Source of the DNA: a virus
Reading direction: 5' to 3' (one strand)
Length of the DNA: 37,062 bases
IMG/VR virus record: IMGVR_UViG_3300046680_000296
Location: 1 to 37,062 of that record
Positions 4 to 37,062 of the stretch are shown in pieces. A model generated the notes under the pieces. The model worked only from the letters and a program-made list of their open reading frames with translations. It was not told where the DNA came from and did not search any database. Every line of letters starts with the position of its first letter. The first letter of the stretch is position 1. A program made the position numbers and the translations under genes.

Positions 4-1602
4 ATGCTGACTGTTTCCCCGCCTGTTGGCTCCAACCCGGCCAGCCAACATAACTTGCGCTACCTGATGGCCCTGAAACGCCAGCAGGCAGCGCTCTTTG
101 CGCGCGACAGGCTACTCAGATTTGGCCAGTTGCTGAGACCGGATCCGGACCATGCCGACGATCCCGGCTTCTCGCTCTACCAGGCCGCGAGACACCACGA
201 AGTCATCGCCGCCGCGCTCGAAGAGGTCGAGGCGGGCCGGATCAAGCGCCTGATCGTCAATTGCCCACCGCGTCATGGCAAATCCGAATTAACCTCTCGC
301 CTGTTTCCCGCCTGGTTCATCGGTCGGCATCCGACTTCCTCTCTGATATTGGCGACTTACAATGAAAAATTCTCCTGGGATTTCGGCCGCGAAGTTCGGC
401 AAATCATCGAAGACCCCATCTACGGCCAAATCTTCCCCGGCATCGAGCTTACCTCAGCCTCCGTCGATCGCGTCGAAACCACCGACAACGGCAAGCTCTT
501 CTTCGTCGGGCGTGGCGGCTCTATTACAGGACGCGGCGCAATTGGGCTCATCCTCGATGACCCCATCAAGGACCGCGTCGAAGCCGATTCTCCGACTACC
601 CGCAACAAGCTCTGGACCTGGTACACCCAGGTCATCAAATCCCGGCTTCTCACCTCGAAAGGCTGGATCGTAATCATCCAGACCCGCTGGCACGAGGACG
701 ACCTTGTCGGCAGGCTCACCGATCCGACCAATGTCCACTACAACGAGGCCGAGGCTCGTAAATGGCGCATTATCGATCTGCCCGCTCTCGCTCGGGAGAA
801 TGATCCGATCGGGCGCAAACCAGGACAGGCTCTGTGGCCGGCGCGCTTTCCCAAATCCTACCTCGAAGAGATGCGTGAGGGCGATTCGCGTGGATTTCAG
901 GCGCTCTACCAGGGCTCGCCGACGCCGGAGAAGGGGCACTTCTTCGATGGAGACCGGATCAAGCTCTACCATAAGCAGAGCGACCTTCCCGCCAAGGAGA
1001 CCCTGCGGTTCTACGCGGCAAGCGACCACGCCGTCTCCACCCGTCAGGACGCCGACAAGACCTGCATGGGCGTGGTCGGCATCGATCCAGATGACAATAT
1101 CTGGCTGATGCCCGAGCTGGTCTGGGGCCGCTATCCGACCGATCGGATTGTCGAATTGATGATCGACATGATGGCCAAGTACAAGCCGGTGTTCTGGTGG
1201 GCGGAGAAGGGGCATATCAGTAAGTCCATCGGGCCATTCCTGCGCAAACGCATGCTCGAACGCCAGACATTCGCGGCCGTCTATGAAATGACGCCCTCGA
1301 CCGACAAGCAGTCCAGGGCTCAGGCCATCCAGGCTCGTATCAGCATGGGCAAGGTCTATATGCCCAGTTTCGCGCCCTGGTGGGGCGAGGCTCGCAACGA
1401 ACTCCTGAAATTTCCCTTCGGCACCCACGATGACTTCGTGGATTTCCTGAGCTGGATCGGCATCGGTCTGGTATTGCAGGTGCCGAGGGCTCCGCGCAAG
1501 TCCGAGAGCAAGGCGCCGAAAGTGGGCACCCTCGGCTGGCTCAAGGACGAGTCCAAGCGCCAGAAGCGCGAGGAACAAGCTGTCAAGAATGGAGGCTGGT
1601 AG
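4..1602 (+). CDS. terL: terminase large subunit (TerL)
   Basis: ATP-driven DNA packaging motor and headful/cos nuclease that docks on the portal. The 532-residue protein has a Walker A motif PRHGKS at residues 89-94, a Walker B LILDD at 182-186 and a coupling-type segment QTRWHEDD near 226-233. A C-terminal RNase H-like nuclease begins with AASDHA at 338-343 and has a late acidic GTHDDFVD segment. Length is typical of podovirus and siphovirus TerL. The ATG lies at the window edge, so its ribosome site is not visible and an upstream start cannot be excluded. The portal gene starts 2 bases after its stop. No small terminase gene was recognised anywhere in the window. Confidence 0.95.
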   Translation: MLTVSPPVGSNPASQHNLRYLMALKRQQAALFARDRLLRFGQLLRPDPDHADDPGFSLYQAARHHEVIAAALEEVEAGRIKRLIVNCPPRHGKSELTSRLFPAWFIGRHPTSSLILATYNEKFSWDFGREVRQIIEDPIYGQIFPGIELTSASVDRVETTDNGKLFFVGRGGSITGRGAIGLILDDPIKDRVEADSPTTRNKLWTWYTQVIKSRLLTSKGWIVIIQTRWHEDDLVGRLTDPTNVHYNEAEARKWRIIDLPALARENDPIGRKPGQALWPARFPKSYLEEMREGDSRGFQALYQGSPTPEKGHFFDGDRIKLYHKQSDLPAKETLRFYAASDHAVSTRQDADKTCMGVVGIDPDDNIWLMPELVWGRYPTDRIVELMIDMMAKYKPVFWWAEKGHISKSIGPFLRKRMLERQTFAAVYEMTPSTDKQSRAQAIQARISMGKVYMPSFAPWWGEARNELLKFPFGTHDDFVDFLSWIGIGLVLQVPRAPRKSESKAPKVGTLGWLKDESKRQKREEQAVKNGGW

Positions 1603-31782: not shown

Positions 31783-32010
31783 GTGACACAGCAGACAAAT
31801 TTGCGATTGAGCCTGAAATGGCGGCAGGCGCTGGTGGATATCGCCGAGATGGATAGGCGTACCCTGGCTGCCGAAGTGGAGTGGCTGATCGACAACGAAT
31901 TGATTCGACGCGAGATGTCGCGGCCGGCACCCCAGCCCCGACATTTGCCCGGATCCTCTCGCGTGAGCGCGGACATTAACTATGGCGCGAAGGGGCCATC
32001 GCGGAAATGA
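31783..32010 (+). CDS. ribbon-helix-helix (Arc/MetJ-like) regulator
   Basis: 75 residues from a GTG start. TQQTNLRLSLKWRQALVDIA then EMDRRTLAAEVEWLIDNELI has the strand, helix A, turn, helix B order of ribbon-helix-helix repressors. AGGAG at 31768-31772 supports the GTG; the frame stays open further upstream but that part has poor codon statistics and is antisense to a better gene. It overlaps the polymerase start (ATGA). A dimer would bind inverted or direct repeats such as those just upstream, suggesting autoregulation. Confidence 0.72.
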   Translation: MTQQTNLRLSLKWRQALVDIAEMDRRTLAAEVEWLIDNELIRREMSRPAPQPRHLPGSSRVSADINYGAKGPSRK

Positions 32011-34070
32011 GAGTATTATCGATCGATCTGGAGACCTGTAGCGAAGCCGATCTGAAGAAGGTCGGCACGTCCCGGTACTCCAAGGACCCCTCGACCTTCG
32101 TCACGGTATTCGCCTGGGCCTTCGACCAAGACCCGGTGTGCTCGATCACGAGCCCACGCGGGATCTCGGCCCATCACGAGCTGCCGGGTGAGGTCTATCA
32201 CCATCTCCATAATGGTGGGCTCATCGCGGCCTGGAATGCGTGGTTCGAGTATTGTCTGATTTCCAATACCCTGGGCATCCCGCTCAAGCCGGAACAGATG
32301 ACTTGCTCGATGCAGAGAGCCCTCTACGCCGGGCTCCCGGCCGCGCTTGGCGATGCCGGCACCGCCCTGGGTCTTCCGGCGTCGCTCCAGAAGGACAAGA
32401 CCGCCCATGGCTTGATGCTTAAGTGCGCCAAGCCCAAGTCGATCGACCCCTTCGGCGAGCGCACTTATACGACGGATGATTCATTTGCGCTGACAGCGCT
32501 TGCCGGCTACTGCAAGCAGGACGTGGTGGCCGAGCGCGCGGTCGCGTGCCGGCTGCCGCAGTTGCCCCCTATGGAGCAACGCATCTCGATCCTCGATCGC
32601 AAGAGCAATGCTCGCGGCATCAGGATCGATCTCGATCTGATTCCGAAGATGATGGACATCGCCAAGGTCGAAGTCATCAGGCTCAACGTGATGGCGGGGG
32701 CTCTCACCAATGGCGCGGTTTCCTCTCCCGGCACCCAATCCAAGCGAGTGCTGGACTGGATGGAAGCCCAGGGCGTGACGCTCGCCAACACCAAGAAGCA
32801 GACTGTCGCCGAGACCATCGACACGGCCGAGGACGCCGGGCTGCCGGGCTCCGTGGTCCAGCTCCTACAGATCCGACGCGAGGTCGCCAAGTCGTCCCTG
32901 GCCAAGCTTAAGACCATGCTGGGCGCGGTCGAGTCGGACGAGAAGATCCGTGGCACCATCGCTTACTACGGAGCCTCCAGGACGGGAAGATTCGCTGGGC
33001 GCATCATCCAGCCCCAGAACTTCCCGAGGCCGTCAGGCGAGCCCGAGCTGGCGATAGAGGGCATTCTACAAGGCATGGACGCGGACGGGCTCAGGATCAT
33101 CCACGGGCCACCATTGGGCGTGCTCTCTTCGTGCCTTCGAGGGACGATGATCCCCTCGTCCGGCAAGGTGTTCATCTCCTTCGATCTCTCCCAGATCGAG
33201 GCAAGGGTGATCGCCTGGCTCTGCGACCAGCTCGATCTGCTGGCGGTGTTCGAGCGCGGAGACGACGTCTACCAATACACGGCCGACAAGCTTGGCCTCC
33301 CGACACGACAGGCGGGAAAGGCCACGGTGCTCGGGCTCGGATTTGGCCAAGGGCACAAGCATTTCGTGGAGTTCGCGCACAACTACAATGTCGAGATCTC
33401 GCTCGATGAGAGCAAGGTGATCGTCAACGACTGGAGAGCCGCCAATCCCAATATCGTGCAAGGCTGGTACGGGCTCCAGACGGCCGCGCATGAGCTGGTG
33501 GAGCAGTGGCATCTCACTCGCGCCGGCACGCATAGTCGGAAGGTCCTGGGCGATCGCATAGAGGTCGTGGTCGGCACCACGAGGGAAGGTGATCCCACCC
33601 TTGCCTTAACGCTGCCGGCGGGCCGTAGGCTCTACTACAGAAACCCGAGGCTCGAAATGCTCCCGGTGAAGCGGGCTCTAGTCGATCCGAATGGCGACCC
33701 GGTGCTCGATGACAAGGGCGAGCCGATGGAGGAGATCATCTACAAGAAGGGGTTGGTGTTCGATGGCGTCGATCAGAAGACCAACAAATGGGGGCCAGTT
33801 CGTACTTGGGGCTCGAAGCTGATGGAGAACTGTGTACAGGCGATCGCCCGTGACGTGATCATCGAAGCGGCCGTGCGCATCGATGACCTCAAGATCGCGG
33901 ATCTGGTGTTCTCGGTACACGACGAGCTTGTCTTCGAAGTGGACGAGCCCCAGAAGTTCGAAGCCTATCTGGCCATCCGGCAGGAGGTCCTGCGCGTGCC
34001 GGACTGGGCCGAGGGCCTACCGATCGCGGCTGAGGGCTCCATCCTGCTTGAGAGGTACGGTAAGGGCTAG
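32007..34070 (+). CDS. family A DNA polymerase with 3'-5' exonuclease
   Basis: Replicative polymerase, 687 residues. The N-terminal exonuclease begins MRVLSIDLET (Asp7, Glu9). Polymerase motif A is SFDLSQIEARV near residue 391, motif B is RQAGKATVLGLGFGQG (Lys present; the usual Tyr is Phe), and motif C is VHDELVFEVD near 637. The size and motif B form match the PolA found with DUF2800/DUF2815 modules in other phages rather than T7 gp5. The start overlaps the upstream regulator stop by 4 bases. Confidence 0.93.
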   Translation: MRVLSIDLETCSEADLKKVGTSRYSKDPSTFVTVFAWAFDQDPVCSITSPRGISAHHELPGEVYHHLHNGGLIAAWNAWFEYCLISNTLGIPLKPEQMTCSMQRALYAGLPAALGDAGTALGLPASLQKDKTAHGLMLKCAKPKSIDPFGERTYTTDDSFALTALAGYCKQDVVAERAVACRLPQLPPMEQRISILDRKSNARGIRIDLDLIPKMMDIAKVEVIRLNVMAGALTNGAVSSPGTQSKRVLDWMEAQGVTLANTKKQTVAETIDTAEDAGLPGSVVQLLQIRREVAKSSLAKLKTMLGAVESDEKIRGTIAYYGASRTGRFAGRIIQPQNFPRPSGEPELAIEGILQGMDADGLRIIHGPPLGVLSSCLRGTMIPSSGKVFISFDLSQIEARVIAWLCDQLDLLAVFERGDDVYQYTADKLGLPTRQAGKATVLGLGFGQGHKHFVEFAHNYNVEISLDESKVIVNDWRAANPNIVQGWYGLQTAAHELVEQWHLTRAGTHSRKVLGDRIEVVVGTTREGDPTLALTLPAGRRLYYRNPRLEMLPVKRALVDPNGDPVLDDKGEPMEEIIYKKGLVFDGVDQKTNKWGPVRTWGSKLMENCVQAIARDVIIEAAVRIDDLKIADLVFSVHDELVFEVDEPQKFEAYLAIRQEVLRVPDWAEGLPIAAEGSILLERYGKG

Positions 34071-34190: not shown

Positions 34191-34532
34191 GTGTCTGAAC
34201 GTCAACGTAGTGCTAAAGCCCCCGCAAAGCAAGACTCCCTCAAGGGCCAAGCCTTCCATTCCCTATACCCTGATGGTCGGGCAAACTACCAAGGGGAGTT
34301 CGTCAAGGATCTCGGCGGCGGGCTCTATCTCGTCCAATACTATAGCTGGTGGGATGGCGGCCCAACGAACCAAGAAATACTGCCTGTTACAGAGTTCGCG
34401 CGCCGGCACCCGGATGGCAAGCCAGTTTACGCGCTCTACGCCACGATGGACGACGCGGAGTATGCCTATCAACATGGCATGAACAATCTGCGGGACCACT
34501 CCAAGGACTCATTCTTTCGTGATGAGACTTGA
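34191..34532 (+). CDS. hypothetical protein, GTG start
   Basis: 113 residues from GTG (MSERQRSAKAPAKQDSLKGQ). AAGGAG 7 bases upstream decides the start. The body is aromatic-rich (GGGLYLVQYYSWWDGGPTNQ), suggesting a small beta fold. No family recognised. It ends at the start of the primase-polymerase gene, so it may assist replication. Confidence 0.65.
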   Translation: MSERQRSAKAPAKQDSLKGQAFHSLYPDGRANYQGEFVKDLGGGLYLVQYYSWWDGGPTNQEILPVTEFARRHPDGKPVYALYATMDDAEYAYQHGMNNLRDHSKDSFFRDET

Positions 34533-34534
34533 AG

Positions 34535-35758
34535 ATGAGCCGGGTCCAGCACTCCCGGCACGCGGGCCTGCATGAGCGGGCTCTCGCCGCCGGCTATAGC
34601 CACAACCAGCTTCCGGTCGTGCCTCCGGACGCCAAGACTTCTCTGGTATCGCCAGGGAAGACCCCAGGCGTGCGCTCGAAGGGCGGGACGTGGTCGGGCT
34701 TCCTCGACTGGCAGAAGGAACAGGAGACCACGCCACAACAGGCGGGGCTCTATGACTCGTGGGGTGCCGGCCTCGGCTTCCTGGGCGGCGTCAACGGGCT
34801 GCTCGGGCTTGATCTGGATATCACCGAGCCCACCTTGCTGGCGGCGGTCAAGAGCTTCTTCTATGGCCTCCTGCCGCTCGATCAATGGGGCACCATCCCC
34901 GAGCGCGGCGTCGATCATCCCGAGCATATCAAGACGCTGCTGATGATGCGCGTGGTTGACGAGACCGGCACTCCCATCCCGCTTCCGTCCAGCTACGATG
35001 TGGGCTTCAGGCTCGCCGATGGTACGCCCAACCTGGTGCAGTTGATCGCCACCGGGCGTTATTTCAACGCCTATGGCACCCACCCGGATCGCAAGGCTCC
35101 TTACGTCTGGAGCCTCGATGTTCTGGACCTCGGGCTCGACAATCTGCCCAAGGTCGAGATCTCCACCATCAAGGCATTCCTGGCCGGGCTCCCGGAGATC
35201 CTGCTGGCCCATGGCGCCAGCATTGGCTCAACCAGCACCCCTACCCAGATCCATCGCGGTTCCAAGGCGCCGCCGATGCCGAACGCGCAACTGCTGGAGA
35301 TCCTGGATCATGTTCCGAACTCGCATCTGTTGTTCGATCACTATGACAAGTGGATCGACTTCGGCCAGAACCTCAAGGGCGCGGCGCGGGAGCCCAACGA
35401 TCCTGCGCTGGCTGAACGGTTCGTCACCTGGTGCCAGGCTCGCACCGGGCCATTCGGTGGCGGCCCGTCCAAGGACCCATTGGACACCTGGAACTCGTTC
35501 GAACCCGAGAGGGCGCACGCGGGTTCGTTTCGCAATCTCGTCGCCCACATCATGCGGCACCCGAAGCCAGACGATCCGGATTTCAGGCAGAAGGAGATCT
35601 GGGCCTGCGACTTTGATGCTTACAACCTGGTGCATCCGATTGAGCCCGAGCCTCCTGCCTTCACAACCGTGGAGCCCAAGTCCGGCACTCCGAGAACATT
35701 CAACCAGCTCGTCAATGAGCTGGGCAAGCTTTGCCCATCCGATCCCGACTACAACTAG
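34535..35758 (+). CDS. primase-polymerase (PrimPol) with PriCT-2-like domain
   Basis: 407 residues. Catalytic GLLGLDLDIT places Asp93 and Asp95 (D-x-D), and ATGRYFNAYGTHP near residues 174-186 carries the His of archaeo-eukaryotic PrimPol enzymes. Residues about 250-310 (LLEILDHVPNSHLLFDHYDK, then WIDFGQNLKGA) match the PriCT-2 domain that follows PrimPol in phage and plasmid primases. It would make primers at the origin. Start: ATG 34535; a TTG 6 bases upstream, overlapping the previous stop, is possible. The RepA-like helicase follows after 11 bases. Confidence 0.88.
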   Translation: MSRVQHSRHAGLHERALAAGYSHNQLPVVPPDAKTSLVSPGKTPGVRSKGGTWSGFLDWQKEQETTPQQAGLYDSWGAGLGFLGGVNGLLGLDLDITEPTLLAAVKSFFYGLLPLDQWGTIPERGVDHPEHIKTLLMMRVVDETGTPIPLPSSYDVGFRLADGTPNLVQLIATGRYFNAYGTHPDRKAPYVWSLDVLDLGLDNLPKVEISTIKAFLAGLPEILLAHGASIGSTSTPTQIHRGSKAPPMPNAQLLEILDHVPNSHLLFDHYDKWIDFGQNLKGAAREPNDPALAERFVTWCQARTGPFGGGPSKDPLDTWNSFEPERAHAGSFRNLVAHIMRHPKPDDPDFRQKEIWACDFDAYNLVHPIEPEPPAFTTVEPKSGTPRTFNQLVNELGKLCPSDPDYN

Positions 35759-35769
35759 GAGCCCGTATC

Positions 35770-37014
35770 ATGGCCATCGAACGCTACGTCTACGACCCCA
35801 GCCCCATCCTTGTGCACCCCATCGTCGTCGGTCCCCTGATGCGCGGCACGGTCTCGCTTTGTGTCGCGATGCCCGGCGTCGGCAAGTCCACCTGGGCGCA
35901 GGCTGCGGCCGTGGCCATTGCTTACGGCCGGGCGGACATCATCGGCGAGAGCCAGACGGCCGCGCCCCTGTGGCCCGGAGACGTGGTGATCTGCTACGCG
36001 GAGGATCACGCGCGCATCATCCGCAAGAAGATCGGCGTGATCGAGGAGCATTATAAGCTCCAGTCTCCAAGCCACGACATCGGGCTCTATTCGATGGTGA
36101 ACCAGAAGCTGTTCAGGCTCGGTCCCAACAACCAGGTGGAGTTCACGGGTCAGCAATTCCTGGAGGACATCATTGCCTGGAGACGCAGCGCGGACGTCTC
36201 CCTGATCGTGATCGACACGCTCTCGGCCTGCCTGGGCGGCATCAATGAATCCAACGCCGAGCAGATGCAGGCGGTGATGGACCATTTCACCACGATCGCC
36301 AAGGCCGCGTTCTGTTCCGTCCTCCTGATTCATCACGCCTCGAAGGTGGCTGCTGGCGCCAACGACAGCCTTAATCTCTACGCCGGCCGGGGCTCCAGTG
36401 TTGTCCCCGCGTCGGTGCGCTCGGTGTTCACGCTCGCTCGTCTTAGCAAGCAGGAAGCAGAGCGGGCTCGCGAAGCTGGCTGTAATCCCAGACCCTTCGT
36501 GAAGGTGGAGACCGTCAAGGCTTCATACTCGGACCCGACTACCTGGCAGCCGCGCTGGTTTCAGCTTTCAGGTGTGGACGTTCCTTCTTACGATAAACGC
36601 GACAAATCCAATCATATAATGTCGCTCGCTTTGCTGGAGACACAAGGGGCTCCAACCTGGTATGCGCCGACTTCTGCGGTGTCTAATCAGAGCCCAGTGA
36701 GCGCCTTCGGTGATCCTAAATCCATGGCTCGCAGAGTGTGGCCTGACCTCGATAAAGCGTTTCGTGCCGGCCCGGTGTGGGTACTCAATACGACGCCGAG
36801 GGACAAGAAGACCACTAACGCGAAAGAGATCTGCGGGCTCTCCGCTGCGGAGATGAAAACGGTGTTCGAGGTACTGGAGAAGTGGGGAATGGTCCGGATG
36901 CCGAACAAGGAGAAGAAGGAAATATTTCGGGTTGCAGGGGCAAAGTTGCCTGAAATTGAACCGGAGTTGGACCAGAGTTCGACCGGAGTTGAGACCGAAG
37001 TTGAACCGGAGTAG
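35770..37014 (+). CDS. RepA-like (AAA_25) replicative helicase
   Basis: 415-residue RecA-fold hexameric helicase. Walker A is AMPGVGKST (residues 33-41), then VICYAEDHARII, Walker B LIVIDTLSA near 146-154 and a sensor segment VLLIHHASK. The C terminus (AKEICGLSAAEMKTVFEVLEKW) is a winged-helix-like segment. It is paired with a PrimPol, as in RSF1010-type and phage replication systems. Start: ATG 35770 with GGAG at 35757-35761 region. The final 18 codons are an acidic Glu/Pro/Thr tail that coincides with an 11-bp iteron array continuing past the stop. Confidence 0.9.
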   Translation: MAIERYVYDPSPILVHPIVVGPLMRGTVSLCVAMPGVGKSTWAQAAAVAIAYGRADIIGESQTAAPLWPGDVVICYAEDHARIIRKKIGVIEEHYKLQSPSHDIGLYSMVNQKLFRLGPNNQVEFTGQQFLEDIIAWRRSADVSLIVIDTLSACLGGINESNAEQMQAVMDHFTTIAKAAFCSVLLIHHASKVAAGANDSLNLYAGRGSSVVPASVRSVFTLARLSKQEAERAREAGCNPRPFVKVETVKASYSDPTTWQPRWFQLSGVDVPSYDKRDKSNHIMSLALLETQGAPTWYAPTSAVSNQSPVSAFGDPKSMARRVWPDLDKAFRAGPVWVLNTTPRDKKTTNAKEICGLSAAEMKTVFEVLEKWGMVRMPNKEKKEIFRVAGAKLPEIEPELDQSSTGVETEVEPE

Positions 37015-37061
37015 GACCGGAGTTTGGACAAGGGGACGACCGGAGTTTGGACCCCCCTTAA
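36960..37061 (+). repeat. iteron-like array, 11/12-bp period
   Basis: Units near ACCGGAGTT start at 36960, 36971, 36982, 36994, 37005, 37016 and 37039, with a degenerate unit at 37028 and a C-rich one at 37051. The spacing is 11 or 12 bases, about one helical turn. A 15-base perfect copy, GACCGGAGTTTGGAC, occurs at 37015-37029 and 37038-37052. The array spans the helicase stop codon at 37014. It may be an origin, a packaging site or a regulator-binding array. Confidence 0.85.
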
Positions 37062-37062
37062 A

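Follow-up and report, generated by a model that had tools for sequence, protein, structure and literature searches.

A helically phased iteron array at the 3' end of a RepA-like helicase gene, a candidate phage replication origin

Replication module and iteron array at the end of the window

The viral DNA analyzed here (the window, all 37,062 nucleotides of the stretch taken from IMG/VR record IMGVR_UViG_3300046680_000296) begins with the gene of a terminase large subunit (TerL) and ends in a co-directional polymerase-PrimPol-helicase module, at the 3' end of which sits an array of short direct repeats (Table 1). The PrimPol gene overlaps the helicase gene, and the two proteins are fused in relatives. 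An in-frame ATG (MAIERY) offers a possible alternative start for the helicase. The best fold match of the helicase in the PDB was RSF1010 RepA (1olo/1g8y/1nlf, E about 1e-13), and the RepA-fold hexameric helicase predicted by the top match (E 1.6e-13) is what an RSF1010-like replicon would encode. In the helicase structure predicted by AlphaFold2 (mean pLDDT 65), the RecA-type core is followed by helices at residues 329 to 346, 364 to 368 and 372 to 384 and by strands at residues 388 to 392 and 397 to 400, with a local pLDDT of roughly 50 to 80. This C-terminal extension (residues 329 to 400) appears winged-helix-like at moderate confidence, with no fold match of its own. A RepC-like iteron-binding protein had no match among the window proteins scanned; about 10 kb of the genome lie outside the window.

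Table 1. Position and basis of the features discussed in the text
Feature	Position	Strand	Basis or remark
Terminase large subunit, query for finding relatives	4..1602	+	in complete relatives, does not adjoin the array
DNA polymerase of the replication module	32007..34070	+	PHROG 17, E 2e-92
AEP-type primase-polymerase (PrimPol)	34529..35758	+	weak Prim-Pol/PriCT-2 matches
RepA-like hexameric helicase (AAA_25, RecA fold)	35731..37014	+	Pfam PF13481, E 3e-23
Helicase C-terminal extension, helix-helix-helix-strand-strand, winged-helix-like; presumed iteron-binding domain	36715..36930	+	AlphaFold2
Iteron array, 7 units of ACCGGAGTT (0-1 mismatch)	36960..37047	+	word search, sliding scan
Last unit and TTGGACCCCCCTTAAA: presumed left hairpin arm and loop, cut by the contig end	37039..37062	+	inferred from relatives

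The units of the array start at 36960, 36971, 36982, 36994, 37005, 37016 and 37039, all of them on the plus strand. The original prediction had described seven copies with at most one mismatch, recurring every 11 to 12 bases. All seven were found again, and the spacing was confirmed (11, 11, 12, 11 and 11 bp) save for the last step, which measures 23 bp, or two turns. Indeed, the autocorrelation of the array had its maxima at lags 11 to 12 and 22 to 23. Several short direct repeats with such a regular, near-helical spacing (11 to 12 and 23 bp) are found at iteron origins; as at these origins, a candidate initiator gene adjoins the array, the RepA-like helicase gene running into the units. The additional degenerate units proposed at 36949, 37028 and 37051 matched the unit at 5/9, 4/9 and 5/9 bases, respectively, which is no better than chance.

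Units 1 to 5 are contained in the helicase frame or span its end, and units 6 and 7 follow its TAG stop codon (37012 to 37014), confirming that the array continues past the gene, and all three codon frames are occupied. The 11-bp period, the use of all frames and the run past the stop together indicate a constraint at the DNA level and not a protein repeat, as had been proposed.

The array is genuine, lies far beyond chance and is unique in the window. When sliding 128-bp segments were ranked by the copy number of their commonest 9-mer, it came first with 7 copies versus 5 for the next best one, and dinucleotide shuffles (n = 500) of the last 128 nt gave a maximum of 3 copies, a value that shuffled whole windows likewise never exceeded. 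Outside the array, seven more matches to ACCGGAGTT (at most one mismatch) are scattered through the window, where whole-window shuffles led us to expect 6.7. The contig ends 15 bp past the last unit, and one iteron set is visible. The GC skew of the window, proposed as a check for an origin near the array, gave no clear signal.

Arrays beside related helicases and distance to the terminase

Searches of viral and genome contigs yielded no close relative of either the helicase or the polymerase of the window. The pattern ACCGGAGTTN1-4ACCGGAGTT retrieved 18 matches from viral contigs, mainly 12-bp coding repeats, none of which lay beside a close helicase relative. The relatives recovered through TerL came from IMG/VR and phage records and included long contigs and complete genomes of 44 to 49 kb. 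Where these had a recognizable helicase homologue, it was located roughly 10 to 15 kb upstream of terL, and in the closest TerL relative (84% identity) lysis and structural genes lie directly upstream of terL. The original prediction had considered that the array might be a packaging (pac/cos) site, in keeping with a TerL gene that begins at position 4 of the window. Since the helicase and terL are this far apart in full-length relatives, such a reading has no basis: the array is not at or near the terminase genes, and none of 47 relatives had a cluster of ACCGGAGTT units at its terL locus. We thus rejected it. Judged from these genomes, the window is a genome fragment and its array is not at the terminase.

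The DNA at the helicase stop contained arrays in 6/6 homologues from the terL relatives (L051 to L056), two of them weak, each with a different unit and with shuffle controls that reached 4 to 6 copies. Rhizobium phage RHph_N65 (L052) harbors 12 copies of GGCGGAGAT 3' of its helicase gene, and L054, L056 and L053 carry TCCTCACCT (8 copies), CGGGAAACT (8 copies) and TGCACCACA (6 copies) at this place. The weak arrays consist of CGTAATAAG (5 copies, L055) and GACCGGCGC/ACTGGCGCA (L051). Among more distant helicase homologues, 4/11 had an array, one of them (BcepGomr) marginal, a share that is only approximate since these phages were picked by hand from BLAST lists. Nine copies of GGCGGAAGT lie beside the helicase gene of EBPR siphovirus 5 (L075), 16 of GCGTGACAA beside that of RHph_X2_25 and 8 of TGGTTCACA beside that of Alteromonas PB15; L090, whose helicase is related to that of RHph_N65, has 10 copies of TACGGAAGT. 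By the same test, no array was present in Baka, ctyzp037, Vibrio 1.076, Shagrat, OSmaximus, Eleri and Yen281. The expectation that relatives would share phased units was thus borne out in the homologues from the terL relatives and failed in seven of the 11 distant ones, indicating that the feature is confined to part of the family.

The arrays of the relatives are built from a phage-private 9-bp unit at 10- to 12-bp spacing, and the same-strand spacings pooled from 14 origins peak at 10 to 12 bp. Closer helicases have closer units, as in the related trio of RHph_N65 (GGCGGAGAT), EBPR siphovirus 5 (GGCGGAAGT) and L090 (TACGGAAGT), whose helicases are 39 to 52% identical. The core CGGAR is common to the words of this trio and to the window word, which may be chance. 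In the window and in the relatives alike, the array lies directly downstream of the helicase gene and its units are element specific, as in SaPI/PICI-type origins. As far as sequence comparison goes, the same architecture 3' of homologous helicases supports the predicted replication origin.

The position of these arrays bears on two further explanations. Short phased direct repeats are, by general knowledge, also typical of cooperative regulators, and with the sequence downstream of the array missing, the repeats could form an operator for a phage repressor (e.g., of the ribbon-helix-helix or HTH type) controlling genes past the contig end or the replication operon. We consider this unlikely, since the array is at the 3' end of the module, away from the promoter, the scattered copies of ACCGGAGTT are at chance level, and the arrays of relatives track the helicase 3' end with units that diverge along with the helicase. 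A partition centromere of an extrachromosomal prophage, with ParR/parC-like iterons, would also look similar, parC sites being generally known as arrays of 10- to 12-bp direct repeats bound by ribbon-helix-helix proteins. However, ParA, ParM and ParR family matches were absent among the window proteins scanned (part of the ORFs of an incomplete genome), and the location of the array follows the helicase gene in many phages; we judged a centromere very unlikely.

Closing hairpin and second box

Several arrays of the relatives close in a hairpin with C-run/G-run stems, an AT-rich loop and opposed units on its flanks. Its sequence is ACCCCCTATATAGGGG in L052, CCCCTTTAGGGG in L079 and L083, GGGACCCC...GGGGTCCC in L053 and L055, TGGTTCACACACCTTATAGGTGTGAACCA in PB15, CCCCACACCCCTTTAGGGGTGGGG in RHph_X2_25 and CCCCTCTCCCCTTTAGGGGAGGGG in BcepGomr, and hairpins are present also in L051, L054, L056 and L080. 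At the end of the window stands ACCGGAGTTTGGACCCCCCTTAAA, which is what the left arm and loop of such a hairpin would look like. The segment ACCCCCCTTAAA at 37051 is presumably better read as the left arm of an array-closing hairpin than as a degenerate unit. By comparison with the relatives, this hairpin would be completed beyond the contig end, where an arm with a G-run and a ACCGGAGTT unit in inverted orientation are predicted soon after CCCCCCTTAAA. Hairpins exceeded shuffles in 7/14 array-positive loci and also in 3/7 array-negative loci, and we thus rejected the hairpin as a universal feature; given this distribution, the hairpin reading is suggestive only.

As with the window, the 3' end of the helicase gene is about where two further IMG/VR contigs of this family (L091 and L093) terminate, perhaps because assemblies fail at the repeats or at the hairpin of the origin.

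Many of the arrays of these phages contain a second box, STAAGTNNTTGAAATCATT, the reverse complement of which resembles the IHF consensus. A search of viral contigs by STAAGTNNTTGAAATCATT alone, blind to helicases, found arrays at 25/117 sites compared to 1/230 control windows. Similarly, arrays were present at 14/93 sites in GTDB genomes versus 0/90 controls, and a helicase match accompanied 11/14 of these array-bearing sites versus 2/79 of the others. Most other genome copies of STAAGTNNTTGAAATCATT are outside arrays, and about 22 adjoin tRNA genes (ARAGORN). The box was rejected as present in the window, the best matches in the last 160 nt scoring far below the motif; being absent from the visible window, it supports the origin class and not the window array directly.

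These controls also speak to a neutral, functionless expansion of tandem repeats at the gene end. Slippage generates tandem repeats and gene ends tolerate them, as is generally known, but in distant phages, arrays that are independent of one another share this spacing and this location, against the 1/230 and 0/90 control windows elsewhere. Neutral expansion is thus very unlikely.

In many Alpha- and Betaproteobacteria, the 19-mer STAAGTCATTGAAATCATT, frequent in these phage origins, also directly abuts the 3' ends of tRNA genes, an arrangement like that of integration sites (L214 to L310 from GTDB genomes, e.g., L253 at 4748, L227 and L249). It occurs in 97 stretches versus about 4 expected by a rough estimate, and it may be a strong IHF site serving both origins and att sites. 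Several contigs of the Burkholderiales MAG LF-bin-172 (L233, L236, L252, L280 and L283) carry STAAGTCATTGAAATCATT in the nearly identical context GTAAGTCATTGAAATCATTGCATGTCGCATGATCCTTCGCTTTTCG, possibly as a multi-copy element. On L208 (8248 to 11334), an iteron array of GTTTTGGGC together with the STAAGTNNTTGAAATCATT box follows a 1028-aa DUF927 protein, and the layout may thus extend to other replication proteins. L177, a viral-contig helicase with an array, is 100% identical to the copy in the Fulvimarina manganoxydans genome (L270), which makes this species its likely host.

Proposed origin and known systems

We propose, with a probability of about 0.78, that the array is the initiator-binding part of a phage replication origin and is bound by the C terminus of the phage's own helicase. 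From the binding step onward, the mechanism is drawn by analogy with SaPI Rep, SCCmec Cch2 and pRN1. The RepA-like helicase would bind the phased 9-bp units via its C-terminal winged-helix-like domain. With a spacing of 11 bp, every unit would lie on the same side of the double helix, so that several subunits of the helicase, making up one or two hexamers, could assemble on the array. The helicase would then unwind the DNA, most likely in the AT-rich/hairpin stretch beyond the units; there PrimPol, whose gene precedes that of the helicase, would prime synthesis by the phage DNA polymerase, and the locus would act as an origin.

It seems to us an even bet that this locus belongs to a widespread class of origins at the 3' end of RepA-fold helicase genes, characterized by a private 9-bp word, its reading by the helicase tail, a box, a hairpin and a recognition code. 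This class may occur in phages and prophages with a PrimPol and a RepA-fold helicase, many of them in Alphaproteobacteria, and its layout may often include a GC-rich hairpin that closes the array and, in between the iterons, a shared IHF-like box (STAAGTNNTTGAAATCATT). In such a class, iteron words would vary along with the binding domains, and each array paired with its helicase tail could amount to a readable recognition code.

Iteron origins next to the initiator gene are already known. The literature searched yielded no report on origins of phages with RepA-like helicases and direct repeats, and no description of a phage family with private words in which a RepA-fold helicase with a candidate DNA-binding tail of its own is combined with an AEP PrimPol. 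The origins of most environmental phages are unmapped, and a rule that a private iteron array is to be expected where the RepA/PrimPol helicase gene ends would make many of them predictable from sequence. With each helicase tail paired to its own DNA word, recognition would be directly testable, and self-recognizing origins of the SaPI/SCCmec style would be linked to a different helicase superfamily. SaPI Rep itself is not known to be a helicase of the RepA/DnaB type with a RecA fold.

The proposed origin resembles that of SCCmec, where the C-terminal domain of Cch2 was found by experiment to bind direct repeats that immediately follow its own gene, and where, in the Cch2/CCPol-MP system, primase start sites map to the origin and polymerase and priming functions share an operon (PMC7581432). 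However, the iterons of Cch2 are 5 nt long and the enzyme unwinds DNA in the 3'-to-5' direction, whereas the window helicase matches RSF1010 RepA and the PrimPol is AEP-like. SaPI Rep is likewise described as binding repeats downstream of its own gene via its C-terminal domain (PMC7581432), and in the SaPI/PICI rep-ori, as described, the C-terminal domain of the initiator helicase reads element-specific iterons directly downstream of its own gene (PMC7581432, PMC6092414). PICI origins differ in that two iteron sets flank an AT-rich region (PMC6092414), compared to one visible set in the window. In addition, the relatives of the window phage, unlike PICI origins, often end in a GC-rich hairpin.

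The oriV of RSF1010 (IncQ) is described as involving the RepA helicase, the RepB' primase, RepC on the iterons and the ssiA/ssiB stem-loops (PMC4234260). The helicase fold, a separate primase, iterons and stem-loops are points of similarity, but RSF1010 uses a separate RepC on its iterons, whereas the candidate binder in the window would be the modeled C-terminal extension of the helicase. The P4 alpha protein, cited in PMC4234260, also binds origin repeats through the winged-helix domain of a primase-helicase, although its primase domain is of the bacterial type (TOPRIM). Finally, pRN1 and Bordetella phage BIP-1 differ in having SF3 helicases and a large stem-loop without iterons, but like the window phage they combine an AEP primase, a helicase and a C-terminal winged helix, and their stem-loop is located directly 3' of the primase-helicase gene, where experiments showed it to be essential for pRN1 replication (PMC4234260).
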